This document shows, piece by piece, positions 4,926-36,962 of a stretch of DNA of 37,871 nt. Both the position numbers and the translations under genes were made by a program. The DNA comes from Candidatus Termititenax aidoneus (lineage in GTDB: Bacteria; Margulisbacteria; Termititenacia; Termititenacales; Termititenacaceae), in contig BGZN01000014.1 of NCBI GenBank assembly GCA_003864455.1, positions 1-37,871 on the forward strand. The letters run 5' to 3'. The notes beneath the pieces are model-generated. The model saw only the letters and a program-made list of their open reading frames with translations, did no database searches and was not told the DNA's origin. The stretch's first letter is position 1. Each line of letters begins with the position of its first letter.

Positions 4926-6251
4926 ATGTTAACTATTAAAATCCCGAATAATTTTCAGCCTGAACGCCAATACATAATAGATGTAATATTTGGCCATTTT
5001 TTTGCTGTAGATTATACAGTACAAACTGCTGGCTGTTCTGTATCTGAAATAAACACTGCCCGGGGAACACTTGTTTTGAATGATAGTTTTTTTGCAGCGG
5101 CGGCGGGCGCTTATATTAAGCGGGAGTATTTGCCCGAAGTTAAATATTATCGGGGGAATTTTATTCCCGAGCCAGATTTGCCGGTATTGTACGGAGAACC
5201 GGAAATAATTGTGCGGGACAAGTATATTGACTGCCGGATAGACATATTTGCCGCTGTGTTTTTTATGTTGGCGCGCTGGGAAGAATGTTTACCTGCTCCA
5301 AAAGATATTTACGGGCGTTTCCCTGCCACCAAATCCGTAGCTTGGCAGAATGATTTTTTGCGCCGGCCGGTGGTTGCAGAATGGCTGGAGCTTTTGTGGA
5401 ATTTATTGCAAAGGATTGCGCCTGAACTTCGGCGCAAAGAAAATAAATTTCAATTGTATATGACGCACGATGTGGATAAATTGGAAAAATGGCCGGAAAC
5501 CAGTCTACCCAAAGAATTATTAAGAGCTGTTCTGGGACGGGCGGAGCAAAATGCCTGGTCTGTACTGCTCAGTTTTTGGCAGGCTAAAAAAGATATAACT
5601 AAAGATCCTTTTTACACTTTTCCGCTGCTCAAAGACAGTCTGCTCAAATATAACCAAGTAAAGGCTGTTTTTTATTTTATTGCCGGAGGCCATACGCAAT
5701 ATGAGCGTTTTTATGATATTCAGTCGGAAAAAATAAAAAATCTGCTTCTCTTTTTGGAAAATGAGCGGGTAGAATTTGGCCTGCATCCGTCTTATGTCAC
5801 TTTTGATAATGCGGCCTTGCTCTCTGATGAGTTGGCTTGTTTGGAACAGGTTATCGGCAAAAAAATAAGAGAGTCCCGCCAGCATTATTTGCGTTTTGCC
5901 GCGCCTGCAACTTGGCGGCATCTTGCACAGTGCGGAATTGAGATTGATTCTTCCGGCATGTATGCTGACAAAGAAGGTTTCCGTTTCGGCACGGGCGCTG
6001 TTTTTCCGGTATTTGATGTAGAGCAAAGAAAAATTCTGCCTTTGCTGGAGCGTCCTTTGCTTTATATGGATCAGCGCGATTATGAATGCGGCGGTTATCA
6101 GGGCACGGCGCAGAACGGCGCGGAAATTTTTGAGATTATTCGGTATTGCCGGAAATATAAAACAGACTGCACCGTGCTTTTTCATAATAATGTCCTGGAA
6201 TCTGCGGAATACAAAAAAACTTATTTTGAGGTTCTCAAATGTGCGGAATAG
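4926..6251 (+). CDS. Polysaccharide deacetylase-like protein with DUF7033-type N-terminus, 441 aa
   Basis: Seen: an N-terminal region with DIFAAVFFMLARWEE (about 106-120), which is characteristic of the domain found before deacetylase folds in capsule loci. A NodB-like barrel follows, starting MTHDVDK (179-185; the Asp pair matches the metal-binding TFDD/THDVD motif), with GLHPSY (His), a SRQHYLRF segment and VLFHNN near the end. In the family such residues bind a divalent metal and remove N- or O-acetyl groups from sugars. There is no signal peptide, so it probably acts on a cytoplasmic sugar or lipid-linked precursor. Its last 13 bases overlap the next gene, indicating translational coupling. 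The exact substrate is unknown. Confidence 0.8.
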   Translation: MLTIKIPNNFQPERQYIIDVIFGHFFAVDYTVQTAGCSVSEINTARGTLVLNDSFFAAAAGAYIKREYLPEVKYYRGNFIPEPDLPVLYGEPEIIVRDKYIDCRIDIFAAVFFMLARWEECLPAPKDIYGRFPATKSVAWQNDFLRRPVVAEWLELLWNLLQRIAPELRRKENKFQLYMTHDVDKLEKWPETSLPKELLRAVLGRAEQNAWSVLLSFWQAKKDITKDPFYTFPLLKDSLLKYNQVKAVFYFIAGGHTQYERFYDIQSEKIKNLLLFLENERVEFGLHPSYVTFDNAALLSDELACLEQVIGKKIRESRQHYLRFAAPATWRHLAQCGIEIDSSGMYADKEGFRFGTGAVFPVFDVEQRKILPLLERPLLYMDQRDYECGGYQGTAQNGAEIFEIIRYCRKYKTDCTVLFHNNVLESAEYKKTYFEVLKCAE

Positions 6252-8089
6252 CAACGATTATTTCCAAACATTCGGAGGCGTCCGCTGGAAGCCTGCGGCA
6301 AATGCTGGAGCTTATCAAGCATAGAGGGCCTGATGATACCGGAATTTTTATCGACGGACGGGTGGCCTTGGGGCATAATCGTCTGGCGATTATTGATCTC
6401 TCTGCGCAAGGACATCAGCCGTTTTTTTACCAGGATAAGTATGTGCTGATTTTTAATGGAGAGATTTATAACTATCTGGAATTAAAACAAGAGCTGGAAA
6501 CAGCAGGGTATAAATTTAACACGCAGACAGACACTGAAGTAATTCCTGCGGCGTATGATTACTGGGGTACAGACTGCCTTCAGCATTTTAACGGCATGTG
6601 GTCATTTGTGCTGTATGATAAACAGAGCAAAAATATTTTTGCGGCGCGGGATCGCTTTGGCGTCAAGCCTTTTTATTATTCTGAAACCGCGGATTGTCTG
6701 GCCTTTGCTTCGGAAATAAAACAATTTACTTGTCTGCCGGGCTGGACGCCGAAATTAAACCGCCGACTGGCCTGGGAGTTTCTGGTTTTTAGTGGACTGG
6801 ATCATTCTCCCGAAACTTTTTTTCAGGACGTATATCAGCTGCGCGGCGGACAGTGTTTACAATATTCGGTTTCAGGTAAACGGCTGCAAATAAAGACCTG
6901 GTATGATTTAGCAGCCAGAGTGAAAAAGAATAAAGTTTTTCCTCAAAAGCGGCCCCAAGAGTATTTGCGGAGATTTCAGGATTCTGTGCGTTTGCGTCTG
7001 CGTTCGGATGTCAAAGTCGGTTCTTGTTTGTCCGGCGGTCTGGATTCTTCCTCGATAGTATTGACGCTGCACAATATTTTGCAAGAGCAGCGCAAACCGG
7101 ATATTCAGGAAACAGTTTCGGCCTGCGCCAAATATAAACAATATGATGAGCAGGAATTTATCGACGAAGTTGTGGCAAGGTCTTCCGTAAAATCACACCG
7201 CATTTACCCGGAGTATGCGGCTTTGCTGGCAGATTTAGACCAAATTATCTGGCAGCAGGATGAACCTTTTGACTCTACTTCTGTTTTTGCGCAATGGACT
7301 GTTTTTGCGGAAGCCAAGCGTAATGAATTGACTGTAATGCTGGACGGACAGGGGGCGGACGAGCAGTTGGCCGGTTATCACGAGTATTACGGGCGGTTTT
7401 TTGCGGGTTTGCTGAGACGAGGCAGGCTGTTGAGATTACGGCGCGAACTAAAAGCTTATAAAAAACTGCACGGTTACACTAATTTTAATATTTTGAAACA
7501 ATTTGCCAATGACCTGCTGCCGTATAAGCTGAAAAGATTTTTTAAGAAACTCTTAAATAAAGAGCGTTTGGACTGGCTTAATGTTTTGGAAAAACAAAAA
7601 AGTGTCTATGAGCAAAATTTTGGTTCAGTGCAAAAGGCGGGACTGGCGCAGCTGCAATACACTAATTTACCACGTTTACTGCATTATGAAGACCGAAATT
7701 CTATGGCGCATTCCATAGAAGCCAGAGTTCCTTTTTTGGATTATAAGTTGGTGGAGTACACAGCCGCTTTGCCGGATGGCTGTAAGATACGCGACGGTTA
7801 CACTAAATATATTCTGCGGGAGGCTATGCGGAGCGCTTTGCCGGAAAAGATTTGCTGGCGCGCGGATAAAAAAGGTTTTGTTACTCCTGAAGAAATCTGG
7901 TTTAAAGAAAATTCGGCAGCCTTGCGCGTTTACTTGCTGCAGACTGTGAACTTGGCCAAAGGGCTGATAAATGACAAGATTGTTGCTATGTATGATGATT
8001 TTGCTGCCGGCCGAGCCGTTTATGATCCGGTCTTTTGGCGGGTGATTTGTTTTGGCCGCTGGCTGCAACTGTTTCAGGTACGAGTTTAA
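6239..8089 (+). CDS. asnB: Asparagine synthase (glutamine-hydrolysing) family amidotransferase, 616 aa
   Basis: Complete two-domain enzyme. The N-terminal glutaminase begins MCGIATI with the nucleophile Cys2 and contains GHNRLAIIDLS, FNGEIYNY and RDRFGVKP. The C-terminal ATP pyrophosphatase domain has the PP-loop SGGLDSSS (265-272) and ends with the usual RADKKGF segment. It can transfer glutamine ammonia to an adenylated carboxylate. Its position between a deacetylase-like gene and an amino-sugar cassette suggests that it amidates a uronic acid sugar, as AsnB homologues do in O-antigen loci (inference), although plain asparagine synthesis is possible. GAGG precedes the ATG, which lies inside the end of the upstream gene. 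Confidence 0.93.
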   Translation: MCGIATIISKHSEASAGSLRQMLELIKHRGPDDTGIFIDGRVALGHNRLAIIDLSAQGHQPFFYQDKYVLIFNGEIYNYLELKQELETAGYKFNTQTDTEVIPAAYDYWGTDCLQHFNGMWSFVLYDKQSKNIFAARDRFGVKPFYYSETADCLAFASEIKQFTCLPGWTPKLNRRLAWEFLVFSGLDHSPETFFQDVYQLRGGQCLQYSVSGKRLQIKTWYDLAARVKKNKVFPQKRPQEYLRRFQDSVRLRLRSDVKVGSCLSGGLDSSSIVLTLHNILQEQRKPDIQETVSACAKYKQYDEQEFIDEVVARSSVKSHRIYPEYAALLADLDQIIWQQDEPFDSTSVFAQWTVFAEAKRNELTVMLDGQGADEQLAGYHEYYGRFFAGLLRRGRLLRLRRELKAYKKLHGYTNFNILKQFANDLLPYKLKRFFKKLLNKERLDWLNVLEKQKSVYEQNFGSVQKAGLAQLQYTNLPRLLHYEDRNSMAHSIEARVPFLDYKLVEYTAALPDGCKIRDGYTKYILREAMRSALPEKICWRADKKGFVTPEEIWFKENSAALRVYLLQTVNLAKGLINDKIVAMYDDFAAGRAVYDPVFWRVICFGRWLQLFQVRV

Positions 8090-8100
8090 TGTACTATAAT
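8072..8100 (+). promoter_or_regulatory. Possible promoter before the amino-sugar cassette
   Basis: TATAAT at 8095-8100, with a weak -35 (TTTCAG, 8072-8077) 17 bases upstream inside the end of asnB. A leader of roughly 33 nt would carry AAGGA (8129-8133) before the ATG at 8140, so this start has a normal ribosome binding site. Confidence 0.4.
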
Positions 8101-8139
8101 AATAATCGTATATATTCTAGCCAAAGTTAAGGATAAATA

Positions 8140-9201
8140 ATGACAGAGCCATTGCGTTTTGCTTTGATAGGGTGCGGGCGTATTGCCTATAGACACGCGG
8201 AAATTTTGCACAATCAGATACCGGAGGCTGAACTGGCGGCTGTTTGTGATATAGCAGAAGACAAGGCTCGTAAGTATGCGGACAAGTATAAAGTGCCTTT
8301 TTACACTGACTACCGAAAAATGCTGGAAAAAGAAAAGATAGATGTGGTCAACATTTTGACCGAATCCGGCAATCACGCCAAACATGCTTTGAATGTTATG
8401 GATTATGGCAAAAATGTTGTGGTGGAAAAGCCGATGGCGCTGAAATTAAATGATGCTGACGCCATGATTGAAAAAGCGGATAAAAAAGGGTTGAAATTGT
8501 TTGTGGTTAAACAGAATCGCTACAATTATCCCGTGCGCAAACTGCGCGCCGCTGTGGAAGAAGGACGCTTTGGTAAATTGGTTTTAGGCACGGTCCGGGT
8601 GCGCTGGTGCCGCGACCAAAAATATTATAATGAAGCTCCTTGGCGCGGTACTTGGGCTATGGACGGCGGCGTTTTTACCAATCAAGCCTCACATCATATA
8701 GATTTGCTGGAATGGATGATGGGAGAGGTGGAATCTGTTTCCGCCAAATCAGCCACCCGTCTGGTTGATATCGAAACAGAGGACACCGGCGCGGCGGTTT
8801 TGAAATTCACCAATGGTGCGCTCGGCATTATTGAGGCCACCACCGCGACCAGGCCAAAAGACCTGGAAGGCTCTATTTCTATACTTGGTGAAAGGGGTTC
8901 GGTGGAAATTGCCGGTTTTGCCGTAAATGAAATGAAAACTTGGAATTTTGCCGAGCAGCGTCCTGAAGACCTTGATGTGCTGGCGGAATACAGACAAAAT
9001 CCCCCCAATGTTTATGGTTTTGGGCATTTAGAATATCTCAAAGATGTTGTGCATTCTATCTTGCACAACAAACCTGCTCCTGTAGATGGCAGAGAGGGAC
9101 GTAAATCTATTGTATTAATCAATGCGTTGTATGAATCTATTGAGACCGGCCAGGATATCAAACTGCATTTTCATCCGGAAAGATCCAGGCTGGGGCAATG
9201 A
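8140..9201 (+). CDS. Gfo/Idh/MocA oxidoreductase, WlbA/WbpB-like sugar 3-dehydrogenase, 353 aa
   Basis: NAD-dependent sugar oxidoreductase. Seen: a Rossmann fold with GCGRIA (11-16), the conserved VVEKPMA (EKP at 96-98, active-site lysine) and the substrate-site segment DGGVFTNQASHHIDLLEW with the catalytic His. The last motif is typical of WlbA/WbpB enzymes, which oxidise C3 of UDP-N-acetylglucosaminuronate. The next two genes, acetyltransferase and DegT aminotransferase, are the remaining steps to a 3-acetamido sugar, and the stop overlaps the next ATG (ATGA). No UDP-GlcNAc 6-dehydrogenase lies nearby, so the substrate could instead be a different nucleotide sugar. AAGGA serves as ribosome binding site. 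Confidence 0.85.
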   Translation: MTEPLRFALIGCGRIAYRHAEILHNQIPEAELAAVCDIAEDKARKYADKYKVPFYTDYRKMLEKEKIDVVNILTESGNHAKHALNVMDYGKNVVVEKPMALKLNDADAMIEKADKKGLKLFVVKQNRYNYPVRKLRAAVEEGRFGKLVLGTVRVRWCRDQKYYNEAPWRGTWAMDGGVFTNQASHHIDLLEWMMGEVESVSAKSATRLVDIETEDTGAAVLKFTNGALGIIEATTATRPKDLEGSISILGERGSVEIAGFAVNEMKTWNFAEQRPEDLDVLAEYRQNPPNVYGFGHLEYLKDVVHSILHNKPAPVDGREGRKSIVLINALYESIETGQDIKLHFHPERSRLGQ

Positions 9202-9803
9202 AAAATTATAAAGTCTATAAGAATGTTAAACTTGGCAAAAATTGCCAAATTGGAGATTTTGTCATAATTGGCCTGCCTCCTGCCGGCAAGAAAAATGGAG
9301 AATTGCGCACCAGCATTGGCGATAACGCGATTATTCGTTCGCATACTGTTATTTATGCCGGCAATGTGATCGGCGTTGATTTTCAGGCTGGACATCATGT
9401 GTTGATCAGGGAGGAGAATAAAATAGGCGAAAAAGTTTCGATAGGCACGAACACAGTTGTGGAGCATCACATTCGGATTGGCAATGGCGTGCGCACTCAA
9501 TCGTCTTGTTTTATTCCAGAGTATTCTACTTTGGAAGACGGAGTCTGGCTCGGTCCCAATGTTGTGCTGACCAATGCCCGGTATCCGCGTTCTAAAAATG
9601 TAAAGAAAAATTTAAGCGGTCCTGTGCTGAAACAAAACGCCAAACTTGGGGCCAATGTAACTGTCCTGCCCGGTGTAAATATTGGCGAAAATGTTTTAAT
9701 CGGCGCTGCCGCGCTGGTAACTAAGGATATTCCAGCCGGTGCAGTCGCTTACGGCGCGCCTGCGGCGGTAAAGAAAAAACTTAAAAATCTGAAAGAGTAT
9801 TAG
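9198..9803 (+). CDS. Hexapeptide-repeat (left-handed beta-helix) N-acetyltransferase, 201 aa
   Basis: Nearly the whole protein consists of hexapeptide turns of the [IV]-G-x-x type (LGKNCQIGDFVIIG, IGDNAIIRSHTVIYAGNVIG, LGANVTVLPGVNIGENVLIG), ending with a basic helix. This forms a left-handed beta-helix trimer that binds acetyl-CoA. EHHIRIGNGV probably holds the catalytic His, and WLGPNVVLTNARYPR resembles the loop of WbpD/WlbB and FdtC/QdtC-type sugar acetyltransferases. Expected role: N-acetylation of the amino group put on the nucleotide sugar by the next gene product. It overlaps the preceding gene by 4 bases and the next gene starts 2 bases after it, so the three are co-expressed. Confidence 0.88.
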   Translation: MKNYKVYKNVKLGKNCQIGDFVIIGLPPAGKKNGELRTSIGDNAIIRSHTVIYAGNVIGVDFQAGHHVLIREENKIGEKVSIGTNTVVEHHIRIGNGVRTQSSCFIPEYSTLEDGVWLGPNVVLTNARYPRSKNVKKNLSGPVLKQNAKLGANVTVLPGVNIGENVLIGAAALVTKDIPAGAVAYGAPAAVKKKLKNLKEY

Positions 9804-9805
9804 GC

Positions 9806-10903
9806 ATGAAAATTCCTTTGGTCAATCTGGAGAGACTGCATCAAGAATTACGCGCGGAAATAGACGCGGCTATTGCGAATGTCATAAATTCTAGCCAATA
9901 CATAAACGGCCCGCAGGTTAAAGAATTTGAAAAAAACTTTGCTCTGGCCAGCGGCCTAAAATATATGATCGGCTGCGCTAACGGCACAGATGCTTTGGTG
10001 GTGCTGTTAAAAGCTTTGGGGCTAGGCGCCGGCGCGGAAGTTATTGTTCCGACGATGACTTTTATTGCCACGGCGGAAGCGGTGGCTGCCGTCGGCGCTC
10101 AAGCGCGTTTTGTGGATATTAGAGAGGACGATTATTGTTTGGATTTTAACGCTTTGCCAAAAGCAATTACAGCCAAAACCAAGGCGGTGCTTGCGGTCAA
10201 TCTGCACGGCAATCCGGCGCACCTTGCGGAATTAAGAGATATTTGCCGGCGGCAGAAAATATTTTTGCTGGAGGACAGCGCTCAAGCTCATCTGGCTAAA
10301 ATAGAAAACCAGCCTGTCGGCAGTTTTGGCCTGGCGGCTACTTTTTCTTTCTTCCCTGGGAAAAACCTTGGCGCTCTGGGAGATGCCGGCGCTATCGGCA
10401 CTAATGATGAAGCTCTCGCTGTGAAGCTAGCTAAACTGATCAATCACGGCCGCTTGAGTAAATATGAGCATGACGTGGAAGGCTACAATATGCGCTTGGA
10501 TACTCTGCAGGCCGCAGTCCTGGACGTTAAGTTAAAATACCTTGCGGATTGGACAGAAAAACGCCGAGCCAGAGCCGACCGTTATGCTAAATTATTGTCC
10601 GGCCTGCCGGTGATTTTGCCGTATAAAAAAGAGAATATATACAATGTTTATCATCTTTATGTGATTCGGGTGAAAAACAGGGATAAAGTATTGCAGTATT
10701 TGCAAGAGCATGGAGTGGAGGCAGGCATTCACTATCCGCTGCCGCTGCACCTTCAGCCGGCTTATAAATATTTGGGTTATCAAAAAGGGGATTTTCCAGT
10801 CGCTGAAAAATGCGCGGAGGAATTTTTGTCCCTGCCGCTTTGTCCGCTGCTGACAGATGAAGAGCAGGATTATGTTGTACAAAAGCTTAAGGAAATATTA
10901 TGA
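9806..10903 (+). CDS. DegT/DnrJ/EryC1/StrS-family sugar aminotransferase, WbpE/WlbC-like, 365 aa
   Basis: PLP-dependent (fold type I) transaminase of the sugar-modifying class. Seen: GCANGTDALVVLLKALG, the cofactor aspartate in LLEDSAQAH (Asp157), the Schiff-base lysine in SFFPGKNLGALGDAGA (Lys186), and the downstream INHGR and YNMRLDTLQAAVL segments typical of this family. It would transfer an amino group from glutamate to the keto-sugar made by the dehydrogenase at 8140; the acetyltransferase then caps it. Length is normal. The stop codon overlaps the next ATG (ATGA). The position of the amino group (C3 as in WbpE or C4) is inferred only from the neighbours. Confidence 0.92.
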   Translation: MKIPLVNLERLHQELRAEIDAAIANVINSSQYINGPQVKEFEKNFALASGLKYMIGCANGTDALVVLLKALGLGAGAEVIVPTMTFIATAEAVAAVGAQARFVDIREDDYCLDFNALPKAITAKTKAVLAVNLHGNPAHLAELRDICRRQKIFLLEDSAQAHLAKIENQPVGSFGLAATFSFFPGKNLGALGDAGAIGTNDEALAVKLAKLINHGRLSKYEHDVEGYNMRLDTLQAAVLDVKLKYLADWTEKRRARADRYAKLLSGLPVILPYKKENIYNVYHLYVIRVKNRDKVLQYLQEHGVEAGIHYPLPLHLQPAYKYLGYQKGDFPVAEKCAEEFLSLPLCPLLTDEEQDYVVQKLKEIL

Positions 10904-26419: not shown

Positions 26420-28081
26420 ATGTCGCCGATTACAGATGTTAGAGCATACAGAACTTATGTGGAAAATATAACCGGCGGCAAGGTTACGGAAAGTAATACC
26501 AAAACCAGAATAATTTCTCGCTACACGGAATTATTCAATAGATATGCGCTGCGCACACCTGACGGTGTGTTTATCAAGGACCCGTCGCAGAAAAACCAGA
26601 TAGTTTCAGAGGGCCAGGCTTATTGGCAGATTTTAGCCGCTGACTTGGCGCGTATCGATCCTGCCAAGGCTGCTAAATATCAGGAAAATTTTGACGCGCT
26701 GCTTAAAGGCACGCAATACATGATAAGACTGGCCAAAGCTAGCGGCAGTTGGGGCGAGTTTCCGGCCTGGAAAGTCAAACAATCCGGAAATTCTGTTGTT
26801 TTGGACAGAGATCAATATGGCCCAACGGCAAATAGCGCGGCTGACGCTGATTTGGATATAGCGCGTTCGCTGATTTACGCGCAAAATTTGGTGGAGCAGG
26901 GTCTCTGGGCTAACCGCGGTTATGACAGATTGTTAAATGTTTGGCTGCTGCAGGCGCGCAGTTTATTTGTTGAGCAAAATGGCGTGCTGGTGCTGGGGCC
27001 GTCCGAAGACTGGAACGAGTTTAGTTTTACGGATTATCTTGATCCGGCTGGTTACAAAGAAATTGCCGCATATCTGACCAAACAAGGCAGAGTTGCGGAC
27101 GCGGCTTTTTGGGAAAAAGCGGCCGGCGACAGCATGAAACTTTATGCCGAAACATTGAACGACACGGGAACATTTCCGGCGCAAATCAACGTGCGCGTGC
27201 GTTCTGCCTCGGACATCGAGGTGCTGGCTGCTAACAACACCCGCATGTCTTATGACGGCATTCGTTCGCCGTGGCGCATTGCGCGGTATATTACTATGTT
27301 TGCGGAAAACAATGCCGAAGCGCAAGCCGCCAAAAACGCGCTGGCGCACGGCAGTCAAAATAATTTCAGCCACACGCTCAGCCGAGAAATGGACGCCGCG
27401 ATGTATTTGCCGTTAAGCGTTGCGCTGGGCAGCGTTTCGTCCGCTGATTTGGCAGATAGGATTTTTAGGGGCAGATTGCCGCGGGATAATTATTTTGACA
27501 ATACTCTGGAATTGCTGGGTTTAGTTGATACGGTATTTCCGCGCAAAGTGAATATTAATAATACGCCGTCCGCTGCGCCCGTTGCGCCGCCTCTGCAGCC
27601 GCAAACTGTCATTCCAGCTCCACAGGCCGTTCCTCTCAAAGACAAACCGGTTGCTCTGCCGGTTGTTGTTATGTCTGGCTGGGACAAAGATGTGAGCTAC
27701 ACAGCCAGCAAAAATGTTTTAACTGTGCACGGTATTGGCAGCCGCGGTGATTATGATTCACTGGCTTTGGGCGCTGTCAACGCAGAAGGCTACAGCAAAC
27801 TAGTCGTTACAGTGGAATCTATTAGAGGGAGAATGAACGCCAATAGATATATCGGTATTTCGATAGACAGCAAGAATTATGCCGGCTACGAAGTGGCTAA
27901 CTACGCTGCATTTCCCGCGCCAGTGGGCAAGCGGATTGCAGACAATCTTATAGACGGGCAGTTGTCTGTAGGGGAACAGCTCGTTTATGATATTGCGGGT
28001 AAAGGCCAAATTTATCTGGGCGCTAAAGTTTATGTTGAGCCAAATGTTAGTATAACTTACAGCTTTGAGCTGCAAAAATAG
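26420..28081 (+). CDS. Glycoside hydrolase family 8 with C-terminal beta-domain, 553 aa
   Basis: Seen: VSEGQAYWQIL, with the GH8 proton-donor Glu (Glu64), SAADADLDIARSLIYA (140-154, the DADLDIA signature) and MSYDGIRSPWRIA (about 276-288; Asp279 at the base position). Residues 40-375 form the (alpha/alpha)6 barrel. A Pro/Ala/Val-rich linker (about 382-415) leads to a beta-rich domain (418-553) that may bind polysaccharide. GH8 enzymes cut beta-1,4-glucans, chitosan or xylan; BcsZ of cellulose operons belongs here. A perfect AGGAGG precedes ATG, but the N-terminus (MSPITDVRAYRTYV) has no signal peptide, unusual for the family. Substrate unknown. Confidence 0.88.
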   Translation: MSPITDVRAYRTYVENITGGKVTESNTKTRIISRYTELFNRYALRTPDGVFIKDPSQKNQIVSEGQAYWQILAADLARIDPAKAAKYQENFDALLKGTQYMIRLAKASGSWGEFPAWKVKQSGNSVVLDRDQYGPTANSAADADLDIARSLIYAQNLVEQGLWANRGYDRLLNVWLLQARSLFVEQNGVLVLGPSEDWNEFSFTDYLDPAGYKEIAAYLTKQGRVADAAFWEKAAGDSMKLYAETLNDTGTFPAQINVRVRSASDIEVLAANNTRMSYDGIRSPWRIARYITMFAENNAEAQAAKNALAHGSQNNFSHTLSREMDAAMYLPLSVALGSVSSADLADRIFRGRLPRDNYFDNTLELLGLVDTVFPRKVNINNTPSAAPVAPPLQPQTVIPAPQAVPLKDKPVALPVVVMSGWDKDVSYTASKNVLTVHGIGSRGDYDSLALGAVNAEGYSKLVVTVESIRGRMNANRYIGISIDSKNYAGYEVANYAAFPAPVGKRIADNLIDGQLSVGEQLVYDIAGKGQIYLGAKVYVEPNVSITYSFELQK

Positions 28082-28097: not shown

Positions 28098-28127
28098 CTG
28101 GCATAATTTTGCCCCTTACGTTAAAAT
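28098..28127 (+). promoter_or_regulatory. Promoter of the ACP-ligase-decarboxylase operon
   Basis: CTGGCA (28098-28103), 18-base spacer, TAAAAT (28122-28127), then 7 bases to the ATG at 28135. No ribosome binding site before the ATG; predicted leaderless transcript. Confidence 0.45.
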
Positions 28128-28134
28128 AGCCGGC

Positions 28135-28377
28135 ATGAGCCTTAACGAGACCATTCAAAAAACGATTAAAGAACATTTTGCCGCTTTTTATAAGAAGCCG
28201 ATCGCGCCCGGTGATAATCTTTTTGCCAAAGGCGTGCTGGACTCGATGGGTATAGTCGGGCTGATTACCTATATCGAGGAAAAATTGCAGGTTGCGTTTG
28301 AGCCGGAAGATATTACCGAGGAAAATTTTGCCACTATCGAAACCATTGCCGTTCTGGTGCAGCAAAAAATCAAGTGA
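28135..28377 (+). CDS. Acyl carrier protein, 80 aa
   Basis: Four-helix carrier protein with the phosphopantetheine site in GVLDSMGIVGL (Ser37). Sequence continues through YIEEKLQVAF and the acidic recognition helix EPEDITEENFATIETIAVL. It would hold an acyl or aminoacyl group as a thioester. It is not the fatty-acid AcpP: the motif is LDSMG and the context is an AMP-ligase whose GTG start overlaps the ACP stop (GTGA). Exosortase-A loci and the butirosin cluster (BtrI) have carrier proteins in the same arrangement. Confidence 0.9.
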   Translation: MSLNETIQKTIKEHFAAFYKKPIAPGDNLFAKGVLDSMGIVGLITYIEEKLQVAFEPEDITEENFATIETIAVLVQQKIK

Positions 28378-29888
28378 AACCATATCTGCTGCAGCATTTT
28401 TTAGAAAACTCCGCCGCGCGGTATCCTGACAAAATTGCGCTCAAACACAAAGACCGCGTTTTGACTTACGCTGAATTGCTGCAAAAAGCTAAAAATTTAG
28501 GCCAGGGTTTGCGGCAAAAAGGCGTGCTGCGCGGCGACCGGGTCGGGATTTATCTCGATAAATCTTTGGAGCAGGTTATCGCCATATTCGGCGCGCTGTA
28601 CGCCGACGCGGTGTTTGTCATCATCAGCAGCGTTCTGCACGCTAAACAGGCGCGGCATATTATTGATGACTGCGGCGTAAAACTGCTGATCACCGAGGAG
28701 AAATATTTGGAAAATCTTGGCGGTATTGCCGCGCCAAAAATTTACGGCGCGGAATTAAGCAAAATACTGGAAACTACGGGCAATCCGGCGCCGCGAAATA
28801 TCGGCGAGGACATCGCCAATATTATTTACACTTCCGGCTCGACGGGACTGCCCAAAGGTATTGTCCTTACGCATCGCAATCTTATTGAGGGCGCGGAAAT
28901 TGTCAGCGCTTATTTGAAAATCACCGCGGACGAAAAAATTTTGGGACTTTTGCCTTTTAATTTTGATTACGGCTTGAATCAGTTGACCACTTCTATATAC
29001 AAAGGCGCGACGCTTGTTTTGTTCCAGTATTTTTTGCCGAACAGTTTATTGAAAATATTGGCCGACGAGGAAATTACGGCTTTGGCCGCTATACCACCGA
29101 TTTGGACTTCGGTTTTCGGCGGTAAAATGGCGGATACCGCCGAGCTTGATTTGCCGAAACTGCGCTACATCACGAATTCCGGCGGCAAACTGCCCGTCCC
29201 GATAGTTCAAAAGATCCGCGCGGCCTTTCCGCAAACTGATTTATATCTGATGTACGGCTTGACCGAGGCTTTTCGCTCGACGTATCTCGATCCGCGCGAG
29301 ATCGACCGGCGGCCGGAATCTATTGGCAAGGCTATACCCAATGTCGAGGTGGAGATTATCAATGCTGACGGCCAGCTTTGCCGGCCGCGCGAGATCGGCG
29401 AGTTGATCCACCGCGGCGCTTGTCTGGCGCGCGGCTACTGGAACGATCCGCAAAAGACCGCCGAAGTTTACCGCCCCAATCCGTTGCTGCCCCGGGACAA
29501 TCAATTTCTCGAAACGGTTGTGTATTCCGGCGATTTGGCTTATCGAGATGAGGAAGGCTATTTATATTTTGTCGGACGCCGGGACAATATGATCAAGACC
29601 GCAGGCTACCGCGTCTCGCCAACCGAAGTCGAGGAAATGATTTTGCAAATGCCGGAAATAAAAGACGCGGTGGTTTTCGGCGCGGCAGACACGGAACTCG
29701 GTTATAAGATCTGCGCTGTCGTAACCCTCAAAACAAAAATTTCCGCCGAAAAAATTAAAGAACATTGCCAGGCCGCCGCGCCGCCGTACTTGACGCCGCG
29801 GGAAATTTTCATCGCGGATAGTTTTCCCCTGACCGCTAGTGGTAAAATAGACCGGCCGCAAGTAATCAAGGAGCACCAGGTAAAATGA
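28374..29888 (+). CDS. AMP-forming acyl/aminoacyl ligase, exosortase-A-associated type, 504 aa
   Basis: ANL-superfamily adenylating enzyme. Seen: core A3 YTSGSTGLPKG (152-162), PFNFDYGLNQL, the A5 motif LMYGLTEAF, A7-A8 YSGDLAYRDEEGYLYFVGRRDNMIKTAGYRVSPTEVE and the catalytic C-terminal lysine in TASGKIDRP. The LPFNFDYGLNQL segment and the neighbours (ACP before, PLP decarboxylase after) match the ligase of exosortase-A gene sets. Expected reaction: activate a carboxylic or amino acid with ATP and load it onto the adjacent ACP. GTG start, 4-base overlaps on both sides. Substrate cannot be deduced by eye. Confidence 0.88.
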   Translation: MKPYLLQHFLENSAARYPDKIALKHKDRVLTYAELLQKAKNLGQGLRQKGVLRGDRVGIYLDKSLEQVIAIFGALYADAVFVIISSVLHAKQARHIIDDCGVKLLITEEKYLENLGGIAAPKIYGAELSKILETTGNPAPRNIGEDIANIIYTSGSTGLPKGIVLTHRNLIEGAEIVSAYLKITADEKILGLLPFNFDYGLNQLTTSIYKGATLVLFQYFLPNSLLKILADEEITALAAIPPIWTSVFGGKMADTAELDLPKLRYITNSGGKLPVPIVQKIRAAFPQTDLYLMYGLTEAFRSTYLDPREIDRRPESIGKAIPNVEVEIINADGQLCRPREIGELIHRGACLARGYWNDPQKTAEVYRPNPLLPRDNQFLETVVYSGDLAYRDEEGYLYFVGRRDNMIKTAGYRVSPTEVEEMILQMPEIKDAVVFGAADTELGYKICAVVTLKTKISAEKIKEHCQAAAPPYLTPREIFIADSFPLTASGKIDRPQVIKEHQVK

Positions 29889-31066
29889 CCGATTGGCGTG
29901 AATATCTGCATTTGCTGCAAACGCCCTGCTATGTCTATGCTTGGGCGGAGATTTTGGCGCGGCTCAAACTGCTGAAAGATAATTTGCCGGAAAATGTCCA
30001 TTTGTACTATGCGGTCAAAGCCAACAGCAACTTGCATTTATTGAAAGCCTTGAAAGATAAGGTCGATGGATTGGATATCAGTTCGGACGGCGAATTTGAA
30101 CAAGCTGTTCTGGCCGGCTACGCGCCGCAGACTTTTAGTTTTGCCGGTCCGGGCAAGACTGACGCTGAAATCGAGCTGGCGATTAACTCGGGCTGCGGCT
30201 CGCTTAGCGCGGAGTCTCTGGACGATCTGGCGCGTATTGAGAATATTGCGCAAAAATTGGGCAAAACGGCTTATGTTTCACTGCGCGTCAATCCAGCCGA
30301 TTTGGTTGAAAAATTTGCTTTGAAAATGGGCGGCAAGCCGACGCAATTCGGCTTTGATGAGGAAGATTTGGCCGGACTGCCCAAATTAAAACAAGCGCAA
30401 ATTATTGGTTTGCATGTCTATGCCGGCACGCAGTGTCTGGACGCCGCCGCGCTGACGGAAAATCTGCAAAATATTTTTAAGCTGGCCAAAAAAATTGGCG
30501 CACCGCTGCGGCAGATCAATGTCGGTGGCGGCTTTGGCGTGGATTATCATATTGGACAAGAGCCGCTGGACGCCGTCGCGGTTTGTCAGGCTTTGCGCAA
30601 AGAAGCGCAAAAATGGCCGCAGACGAAAATAGTTTTGGAGCTGGGACGTTATCTTATCGCGCCGGCGGGGGAGTATCTCTGCCGGGTTATCAATATCAAG
30701 AAATCACGCGGCAAAACTTTCGTCATTGTGGACGGCGGAATGCATCAAAATATTTCCGCGGCGGGCAATCTGGGGCAGATCATTAAGAAAAATTATAAAA
30801 TTCGCAATCTCACCAATCCGGAAAGTGAAAAGTGTAAAGTTGAACTTGTAGGTTGTCTTTGCACGCCGCTGGACACGCTGGCGGTCAATCTGGAATTGCC
30901 CGCGCCGCGGCCGGGTGATGTGCTGTGCGTGGCAAATTCCGGCGCTTACGGCTACACCGCTTCACCGCTGCTTTTTCTCGGTCACCCCACGCCGTCGGAA
31001 TATTTGCTGCAGGACGGGAAAATCACGCTCATTCGCCGCGGCAGGCGTTTGGTGGAATTTAATTAA
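29885..31066 (+). CDS. PLP-dependent (fold type III) decarboxylase, exosortase-A-associated/BtrK type, 393 aa
   Basis: Alanine-racemase-fold decarboxylase. Seen: the PLP lysine in YYAVKANSN (Lys45), GLHVYAGTQ, the phosphate-binding NVGGGFGVDY, ELGRYLIAPAGEY, a CLCTPLDTL segment with the active-site cysteine and NSGAYGYTASP near the C-terminus. The family includes diaminopimelate and ornithine decarboxylases. The closest known context is the decarboxylase next to an ACP and an AMP-ligase in exosortase-A loci, and BtrK, which decarboxylates glutamyl-ACP in butirosin biosynthesis. A role on an ACP-bound amino acid is therefore likely (inference); lysA for lysine synthesis is the alternative. Confidence 0.85.
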   Translation: MTDWREYLHLLQTPCYVYAWAEILARLKLLKDNLPENVHLYYAVKANSNLHLLKALKDKVDGLDISSDGEFEQAVLAGYAPQTFSFAGPGKTDAEIELAINSGCGSLSAESLDDLARIENIAQKLGKTAYVSLRVNPADLVEKFALKMGGKPTQFGFDEEDLAGLPKLKQAQIIGLHVYAGTQCLDAAALTENLQNIFKLAKKIGAPLRQINVGGGFGVDYHIGQEPLDAVAVCQALRKEAQKWPQTKIVLELGRYLIAPAGEYLCRVINIKKSRGKTFVIVDGGMHQNISAAGNLGQIIKKNYKIRNLTNPESEKCKVELVGCLCTPLDTLAVNLELPAPRPGDVLCVANSGAYGYTASPLLFLGHPTPSEYLLQDGKITLIRRGRRLVEFN

Positions 31067-31983
31067 TGGTCAAAATAATTCCGTATTCCAGCGCTTATCT
31101 AAAGTCTTATCAGGATTTTGCGCGGCGCGGCTGGGGGAAAAACTGCTATCAGCAAACGGAAAAATATTTAAACTGGCTGTATCAGAAAAATCCCTATGCG
31201 GATAAAGAAAAACCTTTTTTGCTGGTGATCGAGCCGCAAAAAAATATGGTCGTCGGCGTAATGCACAAAATGCGTTTGCCGTGGTTAATCGACGGACAAA
31301 AAGTTCTGGTTAGTTCTATTCATAATCTGCTGGTCGCTAAAGATTATCGCCAGGGCAGCGGTCTCATGTTGATCACTGCCGCGCTAAAAGATGCGGCGCA
31401 TGCTTTTTGCCCGGGTGTTTTGCCGCCGTTGAGCGACGCTTATAAAATGCTGCGCTGTCAGGAAATAGACGCGCTCTGGTTCCGGAAAATAATCTGGCCG
31501 CTTGGTAGGAAGACAACCACCGCACGAAAGCTTGACTGGCCGGACAACACGCAAATCGCGGCGATGGTCAAAACTCTAAATGCTAAATCAGGCAGTCATA
31601 TTCTTTGGGACGCGGAAATTTTTAACTGGCGTTTTTTGCAGGGGCCGAAACATCTTTTTTTGTGGGTGGACGCGGCCAATTTTTTAATACTTTCCATTGG
31701 CCGGCGCAAAGGTCTGACTGTCGCTAGAATTATTGACGGTCATGTTGAGGATAAAAATTCTACGCTTTGGCGGGACGCGCTGAGCGCCGCACGGTCTTTA
31801 GGCGCTGTTGTCCTGCTTGGCTACACAGCAGACCAAAATCTACGGGAATATTTCTTGATCAGGATTAGGCCGCGCGTCCAGCATCCGCTGGTCTTTTTTT
31901 ATCACAAGGACAAAAAAAATCGGGAAATGAATTTCAGCGCCGCAGCCGGAGATTTTGGGCTGGAGAGTTTTCTAAATAATTGA
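31066..31983 (+). CDS. GNAT-like acyltransferase, 305 aa
   Basis: The first half resembles a GNAT fold: MVKIIPYSSAYLKSYQDFA, VVGVMHKMRLPW and the CoA-loop-like LLVAKDYRQGSGLMLI (about 88-103). The second half (from about 165) may be a second GNAT-like lobe with ILWDAEIFNWRFLQGP. It begins in TAATG, sharing a base with the decarboxylase stop, so it belongs to the ACP operon. Inference: it transfers the group made on the ACP to an amine or hydroxyl. Its last 50 bases overlap the convergent GT4 gene. Family assignment is moderate. Confidence 0.6.
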   Translation: MVKIIPYSSAYLKSYQDFARRGWGKNCYQQTEKYLNWLYQKNPYADKEKPFLLVIEPQKNMVVGVMHKMRLPWLIDGQKVLVSSIHNLLVAKDYRQGSGLMLITAALKDAAHAFCPGVLPPLSDAYKMLRCQEIDALWFRKIIWPLGRKTTTARKLDWPDNTQIAAMVKTLNAKSGSHILWDAEIFNWRFLQGPKHLFLWVDAANFLILSIGRRKGLTVARIIDGHVEDKNSTLWRDALSAARSLGAVVLLGYTADQNLREYFLIRIRPRVQHPLVFFYHKDKKNREMNFSAAAGDFGLESFLNN

Positions 31984-33070
31984 GATATTCCGCATACATT
32001 TTTTGCTCCGTATAATTTTCCGAAACCGTTTGATAGCCTGCCGCGGCTAATTTTTTGGTAAATTTTGGATAAGCCGGCAGGTTGAGTATAATATTGGCCA
32101 GTTCCTGCGGATTTTTCAGCGAAAAAAGCAAACCGTTTTGGCCGTCCACGATCAGGTCGCGTATGCCTGTCGTGTTCGCGCCAATCACCGGCAGGCGGCA
32201 AGCCCAGGCCTGCAATATCGAACTGGAATGACCTTCATATAATGAAGGCAAAACATAAATATCCATAGCCTGGAGATAAGGATAAGGGTCGCTTTGCCAG
32301 CCGGTAAAAATAATTTTGTCAGATATGTTTAACTCCGCAGACAGATGCTCCAATTCTTGGCGCGAAGGACCGTCGCCCACCAGCAAAAGTCTGGCTTCCG
32401 GCAGGCGCGATGCCAACAAAGCAAAAGCCTTTATTAAGAGCTGCTGATTTTTTTCCGGGTACAAACGTCCCAGTGTTCCGATAACAATATTTTTAGATGA
32501 TAACCGCAGAGCGCGGCGCGAGGCTGAACGGCTGGTTTTATGAATACGTTTTTCTGCCGCTAAATCAAGGCCGTTGTTTATCACGGCTACTTTATCCGCT
32601 GGATATTTTTCACGGCGGACAAACACGTCTTTGACATTTTGCGACACGGCAATATGTCCGTCGTAACAGCAGCGCGCGACAATGCCGTCGAGGAGAACTT
32701 TTAGCTTTTTCTTTTTGAGGTCAGGCCCGCGCAAATTGGAGATGAGGCAGGGCACGCTGGCTATCCGTCCGGCAATACCGCCGGTGATAATGCAGGGGTA
32801 CAGCCAGTTGAGCAGAATATCCGGCTTTACTTTTTTTAAGACTTTGACCAAGCGCGGTATTGTCCGCAAAGGATTGTGATCGCTTTGCAGGCGAATGACT
32901 TTTAGGCCGCGCGCGGTCAGGGACTTCTCAAAAGACGGCTCTTCATCAAGCATGCCGCAGACGTAAACTTGCCAGCCTTTTTTGTGCAGAAAGAGCGCCA
33001 GTTTATATAAAACATTTTCCGCGCCGCCGCCGGTGTGCAGGGAATAAATATACATAAAAATTTTTTTCAT
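31934..33070 (-). CDS. Glycosyltransferase family 4, 378 aa
   Basis: GT-B fold. Seen: the N-terminal glycine-rich motif LHTGGGAENVLYKLA, IAVSQNVKDVF, VINNGLD, then IGTLGRLYPEKNQQLLIKAF, LLLVGDGPSRQEL, IIFTGWQ and SLYEGHSSSILQAWACRLPVI with the donor-binding glutamate, followed by GIRDLIVDGQNGLL. Retaining transferase of the capsular/O-antigen type. Its ATG overlaps the stop of the O-antigen ligase/deacetylase gene (ATGA), so the two are translated together. The C-terminus overlaps the convergent GNAT-like gene by 50 bases. Confidence 0.92.
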   Translation of the reverse strand: MKKIFMYIYSLHTGGGAENVLYKLALFLHKKGWQVYVCGMLDEEPSFEKSLTARGLKVIRLQSDHNPLRTIPRLVKVLKKVKPDILLNWLYPCIITGGIAGRIASVPCLISNLRGPDLKKKKLKVLLDGIVARCCYDGHIAVSQNVKDVFVRREKYPADKVAVINNGLDLAAEKRIHKTSRSASRRALRLSSKNIVIGTLGRLYPEKNQQLLIKAFALLASRLPEARLLLVGDGPSRQELEHLSAELNISDKIIFTGWQSDPYPYLQAMDIYVLPSLYEGHSSSILQAWACRLPVIGANTTGIRDLIVDGQNGLLFSLKNPQELANIILNLPAYPKFTKKLAAAGYQTVSENYTEQKMYAEYLNYLENSPAQNLRLRR

Positions 33071-35100
33071 TTTAATCTCGTCTTATGCAAAAACAATTTC
33101 AACCAAAACCGCCCAAAATTGTCATGCGCGTAAATGCCGGTTCGGGGAAAAGCCAAAAAATCGTCCGTGCGCGAGTTGGTTACAAAGCCCAGTCCATACC
33201 CGTCCGCGCGCGCCAGACCTAATACCCGCTTGTCCGCCGAGCCACGGGGATAACAAACTGTATTGATCGAACAGCGTAATTCTTTTTCCAGTATCTGTTT
33301 GGAAAGCCGCAACTCGCGCTGCGCTGCGCTGTCCGGCAGTTGTTTCAATTCGTAATGATTTAAAGTATGCGAGCCGATTGCCCAGCCGGATTTTTGCAGG
33401 CGTTTCAATTCCGGCCAATCCAGCGGCAAATCGTCTTTGCTGAATTTTGTTTGATTCTTAAAATCCCAGTAATACGGCTCCGGGCTGCCTATTTTGTTTA
33501 CAGTCACAAATACAGTCGCTGGAATATTGTATTTTTGCAAAACCGGCCAGGCGTATTTGAGATTGTCGCGGTAACCATCGTCAAAAGTTATTAAACAGAT
33601 TTTATTTAAGATCGGCGCGGCGGATATGATGTGTTTTTGGTAAAAATCTTCCGCGTTCATAAATAAATATTTCCGGCGGCGCAGATAAGCGATTTGTTTG
33701 GCGAAATTTTTTTGCGGCACGGCCAGAGTATTTTTGGCTGTCGGTCGCAGGACACGATGATAGGCCAGAACCAAAACTTTGCGGTACTGCAGACAATTAA
33801 AACCGCGCAAAGATTCTTCCAGTTTCAAAGCCAGCAGGAGATAAAACCAGAGCAAATAAGCCATGATCGGCGCGCGAACCGAGTCCTGAAACAAGCCGTA
33901 AATCGCGAAACCTAAGATGCCCAGAGCCAGACTGTACGCCAAACTGCCGGACAGTCTGCACAGACGCCGCCAGGTAAAAATGACAAGCAAAATAACGCCT
34001 AAAAAACTTAAAAAACCGCATTCCAAAAAATAGCTGAGATACATATTGTGCGGTGAGAAAATATAAATCACGCCGTCGGCCAACGCTTCTTTTTGGACTA
34101 CTTGCATGTTTTCGTAATTGCGGCGCAACTCTTCCGGCGTCTTATATTTACCGCGCAGATCCACCCAACGCTTGTTTTCCTGTTTCAATTTGGCATTAAG
34201 ATGTCCGCCGCCCCAGCCGTTGAACGGGTGCTGCGCGATTTGCCGCAGAGAAATTTCAGCCAGCATATAATGGTCGCGGTTGGAAGCGTCGTTAGGGTCG
34301 AAAAATGAGCGTGTGGTTTTTTGCAGCGGCGCGATAAATAATACGGCCAAAATGCTCAGAATTAAGCCGGTGGCCAGAATCTGTTTCCAGTATTTTGAAT
34401 GGGAAAGTGAGACGATAAAAACGGCGGCTAAGGCTATCAACAAAGCGCGGCTAAAAGAAAAAATTATATTGAAAATAGTTAAAGCAAATATTGAAATATG
34501 CAAAATTTGTTTTAAAACAGCGGAAAGTCGCTGTTTTTTGTTTTGTCCGGCGGCAATATTTTGCCAGAACCAGGCCAGATAAGCCGGCGCGGTCAAACTC
34601 AAAAAAGCGGCGAAAACATTAGTGCCGGAGCGCGCGAGAAAAACAGAGCGTATCCTGTACAAACCGTTGGCGTCCAGCAGAAAAGAGAACGCCGGCAGCT
34701 GCGGCCACGACCAATTGGCCAGGCCGTACTGCAAGAAGCCGCAGACCAGCGTCAAAGCATAGCCCGCGAATGCCGCGCGCAGTAAATAATTGAAATCTTG
34801 GACAGAGCGCACAGCCGCGGCCAGAAAATAAAAAAGTCCAATTAAAACTGTCAGAGACAAAGCGTCGCCGAGCGCCTGCCAGGGCAAATAGGCGTCGCAG
34901 GCTGACCACCATGCCGCAAACAGCATTAAGCCGAACGGCAGTTCATAGCCGGTAATTCTCCGCGTCCAACTCCAGGCCTTTTCTTTGGTGTAAGAAAAAA
35001 ACAGGCCGAGCGCGCCGGCCGCCGCGAGATTGGAGAACCAAAACGGCAAAGCGACCAAATAAACGCCAAACGCAGTAAGGCAGAGAAAAAAAATAGACAT
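33067..35100 (-). CDS. Fusion of O-antigen ligase/polymerase-like membrane domain and NodB polysaccharide deacetylase, 677 aa
   Basis: Residues 1-430: about twelve membrane segments. A large loop with RDHYMLAEISLRQIAQHPFNGWGGG (275-299) and PHNMYLSYFLECGFLSFLG (350-368) is the signature of O-antigen ligase/Wzy proteins (WaaL/PF04932 type). Residues 441-677: a complete CE4 domain with LAYHRV, TFDDGYRDN (505-513, metal Asp), GSHTLNH (577-583, metal His pair) and VCYPRG. The two parts are read in one frame with no stop. The ligase half joins glycan chains on the periplasmic side; the other half would remove acetyl groups. Start at ATG 35100; TTG at 35103 is also in frame. Promoter shared with the divergent gene at 35147. 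Confidence 0.88.
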   Translation of the reverse strand: MSIFFLCLTAFGVYLVALPFWFSNLAAAGALGLFFSYTKEKAWSWTRRITGYELPFGLMLFAAWWSACDAYLPWQALGDALSLTVLIGLFYFLAAAVRSVQDFNYLLRAAFAGYALTLVCGFLQYGLANWSWPQLPAFSFLLDANGLYRIRSVFLARSGTNVFAAFLSLTAPAYLAWFWQNIAAGQNKKQRLSAVLKQILHISIFALTIFNIIFSFSRALLIALAAVFIVSLSHSKYWKQILATGLILSILAVLFIAPLQKTTRSFFDPNDASNRDHYMLAEISLRQIAQHPFNGWGGGHLNAKLKQENKRWVDLRGKYKTPEELRRNYENMQVVQKEALADGVIYIFSPHNMYLSYFLECGFLSFLGVILLVIFTWRRLCRLSGSLAYSLALGILGFAIYGLFQDSVRAPIMAYLLWFYLLLALKLEESLRGFNCLQYRKVLVLAYHRVLRPTAKNTLAVPQKNFAKQIAYLRRRKYLFMNAEDFYQKHIISAAPILNKICLITFDDGYRDNLKYAWPVLQKYNIPATVFVTVNKIGSPEPYYWDFKNQTKFSKDDLPLDWPELKRLQKSGWAIGSHTLNHYELKQLPDSAAQRELRLSKQILEKELRCSINTVCYPRGSADKRVLGLARADGYGLGFVTNSRTDDFLAFPRTGIYAHDNFGRFWLKLFLHKTRLK

Positions 35101-35106
35101 CAAATG

Positions 35107-35898: not shown

Positions 35899-36450
35899 TT
35901 AGCTGCCGGATTTCTTGAGCACATCTTTTTTAAAAATGCCGAAAATATGCAGATTTTCCGGTTTTCCGTCCGCACCGCGCAGATAATTGTAGAGCACTGC
36001 TTCCGGCTCTTGCTTGGCGGCTTTGTAACGCTCCAGTTTTTCCGTGTCGCCGCCGGAAACATAAGTGTAAACTTTGTGCAGATCAAGGTCTTTGAAAATA
36101 TAATTGTAAGCCTGCGTAACGATGATCAAGCCTAGATCGGTGTTGCGAAATTCCGCGGGAATATAAATTTGCAGAACAGCGTTGCGGTTTTGCCAGTTGA
36201 AATTTTGCAAAGCGATGAAAGCCGTCAAAATTTCGCCGTTGGCTTCCGCGATGAGCAGCCGTGTGCGTGCTTCGATCAGTCGTCCGACAGCGATCTCCTT
36301 GAGCAGTTGATTTTGCAGCAGCCGCTTGTTGTTGTAAGGATAGTTGGTCAGATTATGCCGGTAATAATCTTCATTGGTCAGCCAGGCGGCGACTTTGGGT
36401 ATGTCGCGTTTTTCCAGATGCCGCAAGTTGATCGTGATTTTTTCGCTCAT
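35899..36450 (-). CDS. GNAT-family N-acetyltransferase (RimJ/RimL-like), 183 aa
   Basis: GNAT fold: NLRHLEKRDIPKVAAWLTNEDYY at the N-terminus is typical of RimJ/RimL-type enzymes, followed by beta strands with GEILTAFIALQNFNW, AVLQIYIPAEFRNTDLGLIIVTQAYNYIF (CoA-binding region, although the usual RxxGxG/A loop is poorly kept) and LHKVYTYVSGGDTEKLERYKAA. Acetylates an amine, substrate unknown. The ATG overlaps the stop of the next GNAT gene upstream (ATGA). Confidence 0.75.
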   Translation of the reverse strand: MSEKITINLRHLEKRDIPKVAAWLTNEDYYRHNLTNYPYNNKRLLQNQLLKEIAVGRLIEARTRLLIAEANGEILTAFIALQNFNWQNRNAVLQIYIPAEFRNTDLGLIIVTQAYNYIFKDLDLHKVYTYVSGGDTEKLERYKAAKQEPEAVLYNYLRGADGKPENLHIFGIFKKDVLKKSGS

Positions 36451-36962
36451 TTATAATAATCCTCTTTGTTTAAACCGAAAATTTCTTGATCGTGAAATTT
36501 GTTGTTATAGAAAAGATGCTCATTCAACTGGCCTTCTTTTTTGAAAAAACATTCCAGCAGGATTTTTTTTAATTCCAGTTCATGCGGCTGGCAGTGGCAG
36601 TAAACTTTGACCAGATTGGTCTTGCTGAAAAGATTGGTCAGGCCGGCTTCCAGCGCTTCTTGAAGCAACTTGGTGTTGTTTTTAGAAGGCTGCAAAGTCA
36701 GACTGACTTCGGCAATATGCTGCGGATTGTGAATATTGCTGAATAACAGCACGCCAAGCGGCTGGCCGCCGCGGTTGTGTGCCAGATAAAATTGATGATC
36801 CAGCGAACTGACGAGCATCGCCAGATAATCGGTGCTGGCAGTCAGCGTGGTTTTATTCAAAAAAAAAGAATCGCGCGTTTTGGCCGACCACTGGCGGATC
36901 AGCGCGATATTCTGCGGTTTGACTGATTCCAGATAAATATTTTCCCCGTCGAGCCTTGGCAT
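36447..36962 (-). CDS. GNAT-family N-acetyltransferase, 171 aa
   Basis: Similar plan to its downstream partner: IYLESVKPQNIALIRQWSAK, then LAHNRGGQPLGVLLFSNIH, AEVSLTLQP, a region LLQEALEAGLTNLFSKTNLVKVYCHC and a C-terminal KILLECFFKKEG. The acetyl-CoA loop is degenerate (PSKNNTKLLQEAL replaces RxxGxG), so it may be a divergent or non-acetyl transferase. Tightly coupled to the following gene by a 4-base overlap. A -10 box lies 9 nt from the ATG. The substrate could be a sugar nucleotide of the surface glycan (inference). Confidence 0.68.
   Translation of the reverse strand: MPRLDGENIYLESVKPQNIALIRQWSAKTRDSFFLNKTTLTASTDYLAMLVSSLDHQFYLAHNRGGQPLGVLLFSNIHNPQHIAEVSLTLQPSKNNTKLLQEALEAGLTNLFSKTNLVKVYCHCQPHELELKKILLECFFKKEGQLNEHLFYNNKFHDQEIFGLNKEDYYK

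Follow-up and report, generated by a model that had tools for sequence, protein, structure and literature searches.

A four-gene operon of Candidatus Termititenax aidoneus that may build beta-alanyl-ACP for surface-glycan decoration

Introduction

Decarboxylation of an amino acid on an acyl carrier protein (ACP) is known from antibiotic biosynthesis. In the butirosin pathway, BtrK decarboxylates glutamyl-BtrI (PMC7857480), and in the vicenistatin pathway VinO acts on aminoacyl-VinL (PMC11284099). The vicenistatin ligase, VinN, adenylates a beta-carboxylate and prefers 3-methylaspartate, and the product starts a polyketide. Within its active site, Asp230 recognizes the alpha-amino group of beta-methyl-aspartate, and Ser299 and Arg331 recognize the alpha-carboxyl group (PMC7756342). 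The AfcQ/AfcK/AfcP proteins of Burkholderia AFC-BC11 and the BolO/BolC/BolN proteins of the bolagladins combine a VinN-type ligase, which places L-Asp on a free-standing ACP, with PLP-dependent decarboxylation to beta-alanyl-ACP, and both systems feed lipopeptides. AfcQ activates L-Asp, not beta-Ala, and AfcP decarboxylates the carrier-bound L-Asp (PMC12186527).

A ligase/decarboxylase pair of this kind, TIGR03098/TIGR03099, is named by NCBI only by its exosortase A company ('hypoth_equivalog'), and no substrate is given. A literature search returned nothing usable on the function of the exosortase-associated ACP and decarboxylase, and nothing usable on beta-alanyl surface glycans. For the A-LPS linking sugar of Porphyromonas, a deacetylase, VimE, exposes an amine, and an amino acid is added by VimA, a putative N-acetyltransferase-type protein (PMC7468200).

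Here we analyze an operon of Candidatus Termititenax aidoneus that shares features with each of these systems. The operon is predicted to share beta-carboxylate adenylation, ACP loading and decarboxylation on the ACP with the vicenistatin pathway, and the type of ligase, the aspartate substrate and the beta-alanyl-ACP product with the afc and bol systems. Unlike the latter, it lies within a polysaccharide locus, its fourth gene encodes a GNAT-like protein, and a KAS III was not recognized. Among PDB entries, BtrK is the nearest to the operon decarboxylase, with which it shares the CTPxD motif; BtrK itself works on a glutamyl-ACP. Relative to the exosortase A-associated set, the ligase is a member by score and the decarboxylase is nearest to TIGR03099, but no exosortase was found in the genome, the decarboxylase scores 69 bits under the cut-off, and the fourth gene has no NCBIfam match. 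The logic that we propose is that of VimE and VimA, although the consulted parts of that source describe VimA without a carrier protein, a decarboxylase or a beta-amino acid (PMC7468200), and the fourth gene matches no NCBIfam model.

Results

The window, which is the whole stretch of 37,871 nucleotides that was analyzed, is one contig (C14, BGZN01000014.1) of a 2.26-Mb, 93%-complete assembly of 233 contigs (G000). The operon comprises four forward-strand genes whose reading frames overlap successively by 4, 4 and 1 bases (Table 1), as an earlier note on this DNA had reported. The interval given there, 28098-31983, starts 37 bases 5' of the ACP gene and out of frame. A promoter and terminator scan gave results barely above chance. 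Among NCBIfam models, the ACP matches AmcB best (39.6 bits, below its cut-off) and then DltC, and D36 and S37, which are invariant among seven family sequences, likely form the phosphopantetheine site. Upstream, a GH8-like protein (26420-28081) stops 54 bases 5' of the ACP gene; it is similarly placed in loci L021 and L024 and is absent from the second genus.

Table 1. Genes of the operon and the adjoining convergent genes
Feature	Position	Strand	Remarks
ACP	28135-28377	+	80 aa; PF00550, 26.6 bits (cut-off 20.8)
AMP-forming aminoacyl-ACP ligase	28374-29888	+	GTG start; passes TIGR03098; predicted substrate L-aspartate, activated at its beta-carboxylate
PLP fold-III decarboxylase, BtrK type	29885-31066	+	predicted to convert beta-aspartyl-ACP to beta-alanyl-ACP
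Gene 4, GNAT-like	31066-31983	+	305 aa; may serve as an ACP-dependent N-(beta-alanyl)transferase
GT4 glycosyltransferase	31934-33070	-	convergent with and overlapping gene 4; best model TIGR03088, 167 bits (cut-off 409)
Wzy_C/O-antigen ligase-type membrane protein fused to polysaccharide deacetylase	33067-35103	-	PF04932 and PF01522 above cut-off

The complete set, with gene order kept, occurs in seven genomes from two genera of one family (Ca. Termititenax/Margulisbacteria). In an eighth genome, G005, the contig breaks off within the decarboxylase, leaving its 109 C-terminal residues and gene 4. Across the seven genomes, identities are 72-95% for the ACP, 77-91% for the ligase, 69-92% for the decarboxylase and 66-88% for gene 4. 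Such conservation of both the proteins and their order across two genera shows that the set is not a chance arrangement. The set was not found in the remainder of the sampled phylum. TIGR03099 scores reach at most 226 bits in 47 sampled genomes outside the family, versus 404-421 bits for the family's operon copies. Gene 4 itself was found, in a search of 74 genomes of the phylum, in the eight family genomes and as one distant homologue in genome G054 (E 3.9e-8). A scan of genome contigs gave matches confined to the same family, the named close relatives being Candidatus Termititenax persephonae and other Margulisiibacteriota MAGs, and a scan of plasmids gave no match.

The ligase scores 618.5 bits against TIGR03098, above the cut-off of 592.35, so that the membership proposed in the earlier note holds for this protein. 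Its substrate-binding core has VinN (3wv4/3wvn) as its top PDB match (E 7.6e-27). In the alignment, D198, S269 and R301 of the ligase correspond to Asp230, Ser299 and Arg331 of VinN, and the ligase shares the two-residue deletion that VinN has at the position before R301; it thus carries the Asp/Ser/Arg equivalents expected of VinN-type beta-carboxylate adenylating enzymes. All three residues are invariant in the seven family ligases. The same triad (D, S or T, R) and the deletion are found in seven plasmid-borne TIGR03098-type ligases and in an AfcQ-like protein, and the triad is absent from two LgrA domains and from an A domain of 25% identity. The ligase is also 43-46% identical to a Burkholderia afc-like ligase (43% over 368 aa). 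By our reading, the Burkholderia cenocepacia locus that encodes the 43%-identical ligase also encodes KAS III-like and citrate synthase-like proteins and therefore fits afc; we infer that it is an afc cluster.

BtrJ of the butirosin pathway is an ATP-grasp ligase and does not belong to the AMP-ligase family of the operon enzyme. The resemblance to BtrI/BtrJ/BtrK drawn in the earlier note holds for the decarboxylase and fails for the ligase, which is VinN/AfcQ-like, and it is on this ground that L-aspartate and beta-alanyl-ACP are predicted. Given the VinN triad, the two-residue deletion and the identity to the afc-like ligase, the product of ligase and decarboxylase is probably beta-alanyl-ACP. 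At position 199, the ligase has Tyr where the AfcQ-like protein has Ala, so 3-methyl-aspartate or another beta-carboxylate is a possible alternative substrate. A search for glutamate mutase, which would supply 3-methylaspartate, gave no match, and its control was likewise silent.

TIGR03099 is the highest-scoring of all NCBIfam models for the decarboxylase, as had been anticipated, but its 409.2 bits fall short of the cut-off of 478.45. The lysA model gives 254.6 bits, also below its cut-off (297.9). The top PDB match is BtrK at 313 bits, and the best entry annotated as a diaminopimelate (DAP) decarboxylase reaches 196 bits. In a maximum-likelihood tree with 16 sequences on the BtrK/TIGR03099 side and 14 LysA sequences, the genome's own LysA among them, the decarboxylase, BtrK and the TIGR03099-type proteins are split from LysA with 100/100 support; since BtrK is a long branch, the exact position within the clade is unsure. 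The motif of the decarboxylase is CTPLD, matching the C-T-P-x-D of BtrK, versus C-E-S-x-D in all 14 LysA sequences. Grouping with the free DAP decarboxylases, which the earlier note had considered as a counter-case, was thus not observed, and we rejected that identity for a protein that lies outside the LysA clade, lacks CESxD and scores below the lysA cut-off. The BtrK match, the clade and the CTPxD motif instead support the idea that the amino acid is decarboxylated on the ACP in the manner of BtrK. Identity between the operon decarboxylase and the afc-like one is just 26%, and the latter reads TCSRAD at the CTPxD position. The aspartate assignment therefore leans mainly on the ligase.

The window copy of gene 4 has no family match below 1e-3 and no NCBIfam match at E up to 5, TIGR03019 (VimA / FemAB XrtA-associated) included. 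Against PF13527 (cut-off 25 bits), it scores 11.9 bits and its relatives in L025 and L026 score 20.5 and 17.5 bits; E-values of 5e-4 and 4e-3 were obtained for two relatives, both below the bit cut-off. The distant homologue in G054 exceeds the PF13527 cut-off, and the gene immediately after it encodes a polysaccharide deacetylase. A low-confidence structure model (pLDDT 50) matches mostly GNATs and also N-myristoyltransferases, none at E < 0.001, and weakly suggests a GNAT-like fold. An unnamed protein of ~285 aa lies beside the same module in Shinella, Rhizobium, Sinorhizobium and Aureimonas. Profile comparison of gene 4 with this protein gives E 3e-4 at just 38% probability; the ~285-aa profile ranks gene 4 first among 35 window proteins, and across the eight genomes its sole match is gene 4 of G002 (E 0.47). 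Gene 4 and the rhizobial partner are likely homologous. In the middle of gene 4, an insertion of ~15 aa appears and disappears among close relatives (the window, L021, L023 and L025), a pattern that suggests recombination.

The polysaccharide setting recognized in the earlier note is borne out by the linked genes. The GT4 gene adjoins the operon in all eight genomes, and the Wzy-deacetylase fusion does so in seven; in G001, the contig stops before reaching it. The deacetylase part beside the operon forms a separate frame of 280 aa in G002. Two small GNAT genes (PF13302) stand in tandem at 35899-36962 and are retained near the operon locus in several family genomes. In Sinorhizobium, Aureimonas and Rhizobium, polysaccharide loci that contain polysaccharide deacetylases hold the same set together with the ~285-aa partner, and an exosortase is not annotated in the vicinity.

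The earlier note had also pointed to an amino sugar made by the genes at 8140-10903 as a possible acceptor, and here the search for orthologues gives a different answer. The genes at 4926-10903 encode a VimE-like deacetylase (173 bits, below cut-off), an AsnB-type amidotransferase, a Gfo/Idh dehydrogenase, a hexapeptide acetyltransferase and an aminotransferase, and from these assignments they look like a Wbp/Vim route, as described in PMC7468200, to a uronamide linking sugar bearing an amino acid. Within the family, however, the VimE-like and WlbA-like genes occur in this genome only. None of the seven operon-carrying relatives has an orthologue of the genes at 8140-10903, and we therefore rejected these genes as a conserved acceptor pathway. 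The 4926-10903 genes could supply an acceptor in this genome alone.

No exosortase was found in the window, as noted earlier, or in the rest of the genome, and the control matched in M. jannaschii. No exosortase was found in seven of the eight operon-bearing family genomes, the 93%-complete genome studied here among them. The exception, G007, belongs to another genus and has a solitary gene beside secA (L063, 43-975 of contig C53), on a contig other than that of its operon; it scores 65 bits against TIGR02602 and exceeds the PF09721 cut-off, and reaches no subtype cut-off. An exosortase set that could explain the operon, a prospect also raised in the earlier note, was thus not encountered, the G007 gene being unlinked. 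PEP-CTERM proteins had no match in the eight genomes with a model that also matched no control.

Discussion

We consider it likely that the operon holds a module that converts aspartate to beta-alanyl-ACP. Whether this carrier-built beta-alanine is then used to N-acylate an amino sugar in a surface glycan is, in our estimate, evenly balanced. In the proposed pathway, AcpS would produce the holo-ACP. The ligase would then adenylate the side-chain carboxylate of L-aspartate, with D198 holding the alpha-amine and S269 and R301 the alpha-carboxylate, and load the ACP. Removal of the free alpha-carboxylate by the decarboxylase would leave beta-alanyl-ACP, whose acyl group ends in an amine. Gene 4 would pass the beta-alanyl group from the ACP to a nucleotide- or lipid-linked sugar in the cytoplasm, onto an amine probably freed by the deacetylase domain of the adjoining gene, and the neighboring GT4 and Wzy-type proteins would assemble the glycan, followed by export. 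Loading and decarboxylation are predicted from clade membership, active-site residues and characterized relatives; transfer and assembly we infer from gene linkage and weak fold evidence. AcpS (PF01648) was not found in the 233 contigs of this genome and is present in five of the eight family genomes; its absence is probably an assembly gap. The deacetylase domain is assumed, by analogy, to lie in the cytoplasm and could instead face the periplasm.

Of the picture drawn in the earlier note, the BtrK-type chemistry, the missing exosortase and the polysaccharide context survive, and the acceptor made at 8140-10903 is not supported. Transfer of beta-alanine to a glycan amine by gene 4, a predicted transferase, seems to us plausible and could fall either way. 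The usual acyl donor of GNATs is acetyl-CoA, and a hexapeptide-type acetyltransferase occupies the position of gene 4 in Paracoccus sets, so gene 4 might simply acetylate the amine of the beta-alanyl group, as an ordinary acetyltransferase, while another enzyme carries out the sugar transfer. We regard this as unlikely, as the operon conserves no other candidate transferase. A similarly modest chance is given to beta-alanyl-ACP or oligo-beta-alanyl-ACP going into a small lipopeptide or lipid that is secreted, as in Burkholderia afc and bol, with gene 4 acylating or releasing the product and the glycan neighbors being incidental. The closest characterized ligases, AfcQ and BolO, do act in making lipopeptides, and repeated loading by AfcQ yields (beta-Ala)3 (PMC7756342, PMC12186527), but no KAS III, NRPS or fatty-acyl ligase was recognized among the neighbors of the operon, and the constant neighbors in two genera are instead the GT4 and Wzy-deacetylase genes.

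The set could also be an exosortase A ligase/decarboxylase module, and the operon a remnant of, or partner to, exosortase protein sorting. The TIGR03098 and TIGR03099 results agree with this origin, glycosyltransferases and the amidotransferase show below-cut-off similarity to XrtA-associated families, and one relative, G007, has an exosortase. We nevertheless think it quite improbable, given that none was found in the other seven operon-bearing genomes and that the gene in G007 is next to secA on a separate contig and falls under every subtype cut-off. That the decarboxylase is a second DAP decarboxylase for lysine synthesis is very improbable: its lysA score of 254.6 bits is set against the missed cut-off, the 100/100 placement outside the LysA clade, the lack of CESxD and the separate LysA in the genome, by which lysine synthesis is covered.

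Taken together, the chemistry of the predicted module is already known from antibiotics; what is most likely new is its use for a glycan without the usual exosortase, together with the fourth gene. We tentatively suggest, as a possibility on the weaker side, that TIGR03098/TIGR03099 sets in general, those with exosortase A included, make beta-alanyl-ACP or oligo-beta-alanyl-ACP for N-acylation of surface glycans, and that gene 4 and the ~285-aa rhizobial proteins together form a new family of transferases that move beta-aminoacyl groups from ACP to sugars. The match to the VinN residues and a biochemically solved pathway would extend the prediction of L-Asp conversion to beta-alanyl-ACP to this operon, the rhizobial loci and the exosortase A systems together. 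If the transfer step is true, it would be a tRNA-free and CoA-free route for placing a positively charged beta-amino acid on a bacterial surface glycan, and this route would belong to an uncultured lineage of termite-gut symbionts.
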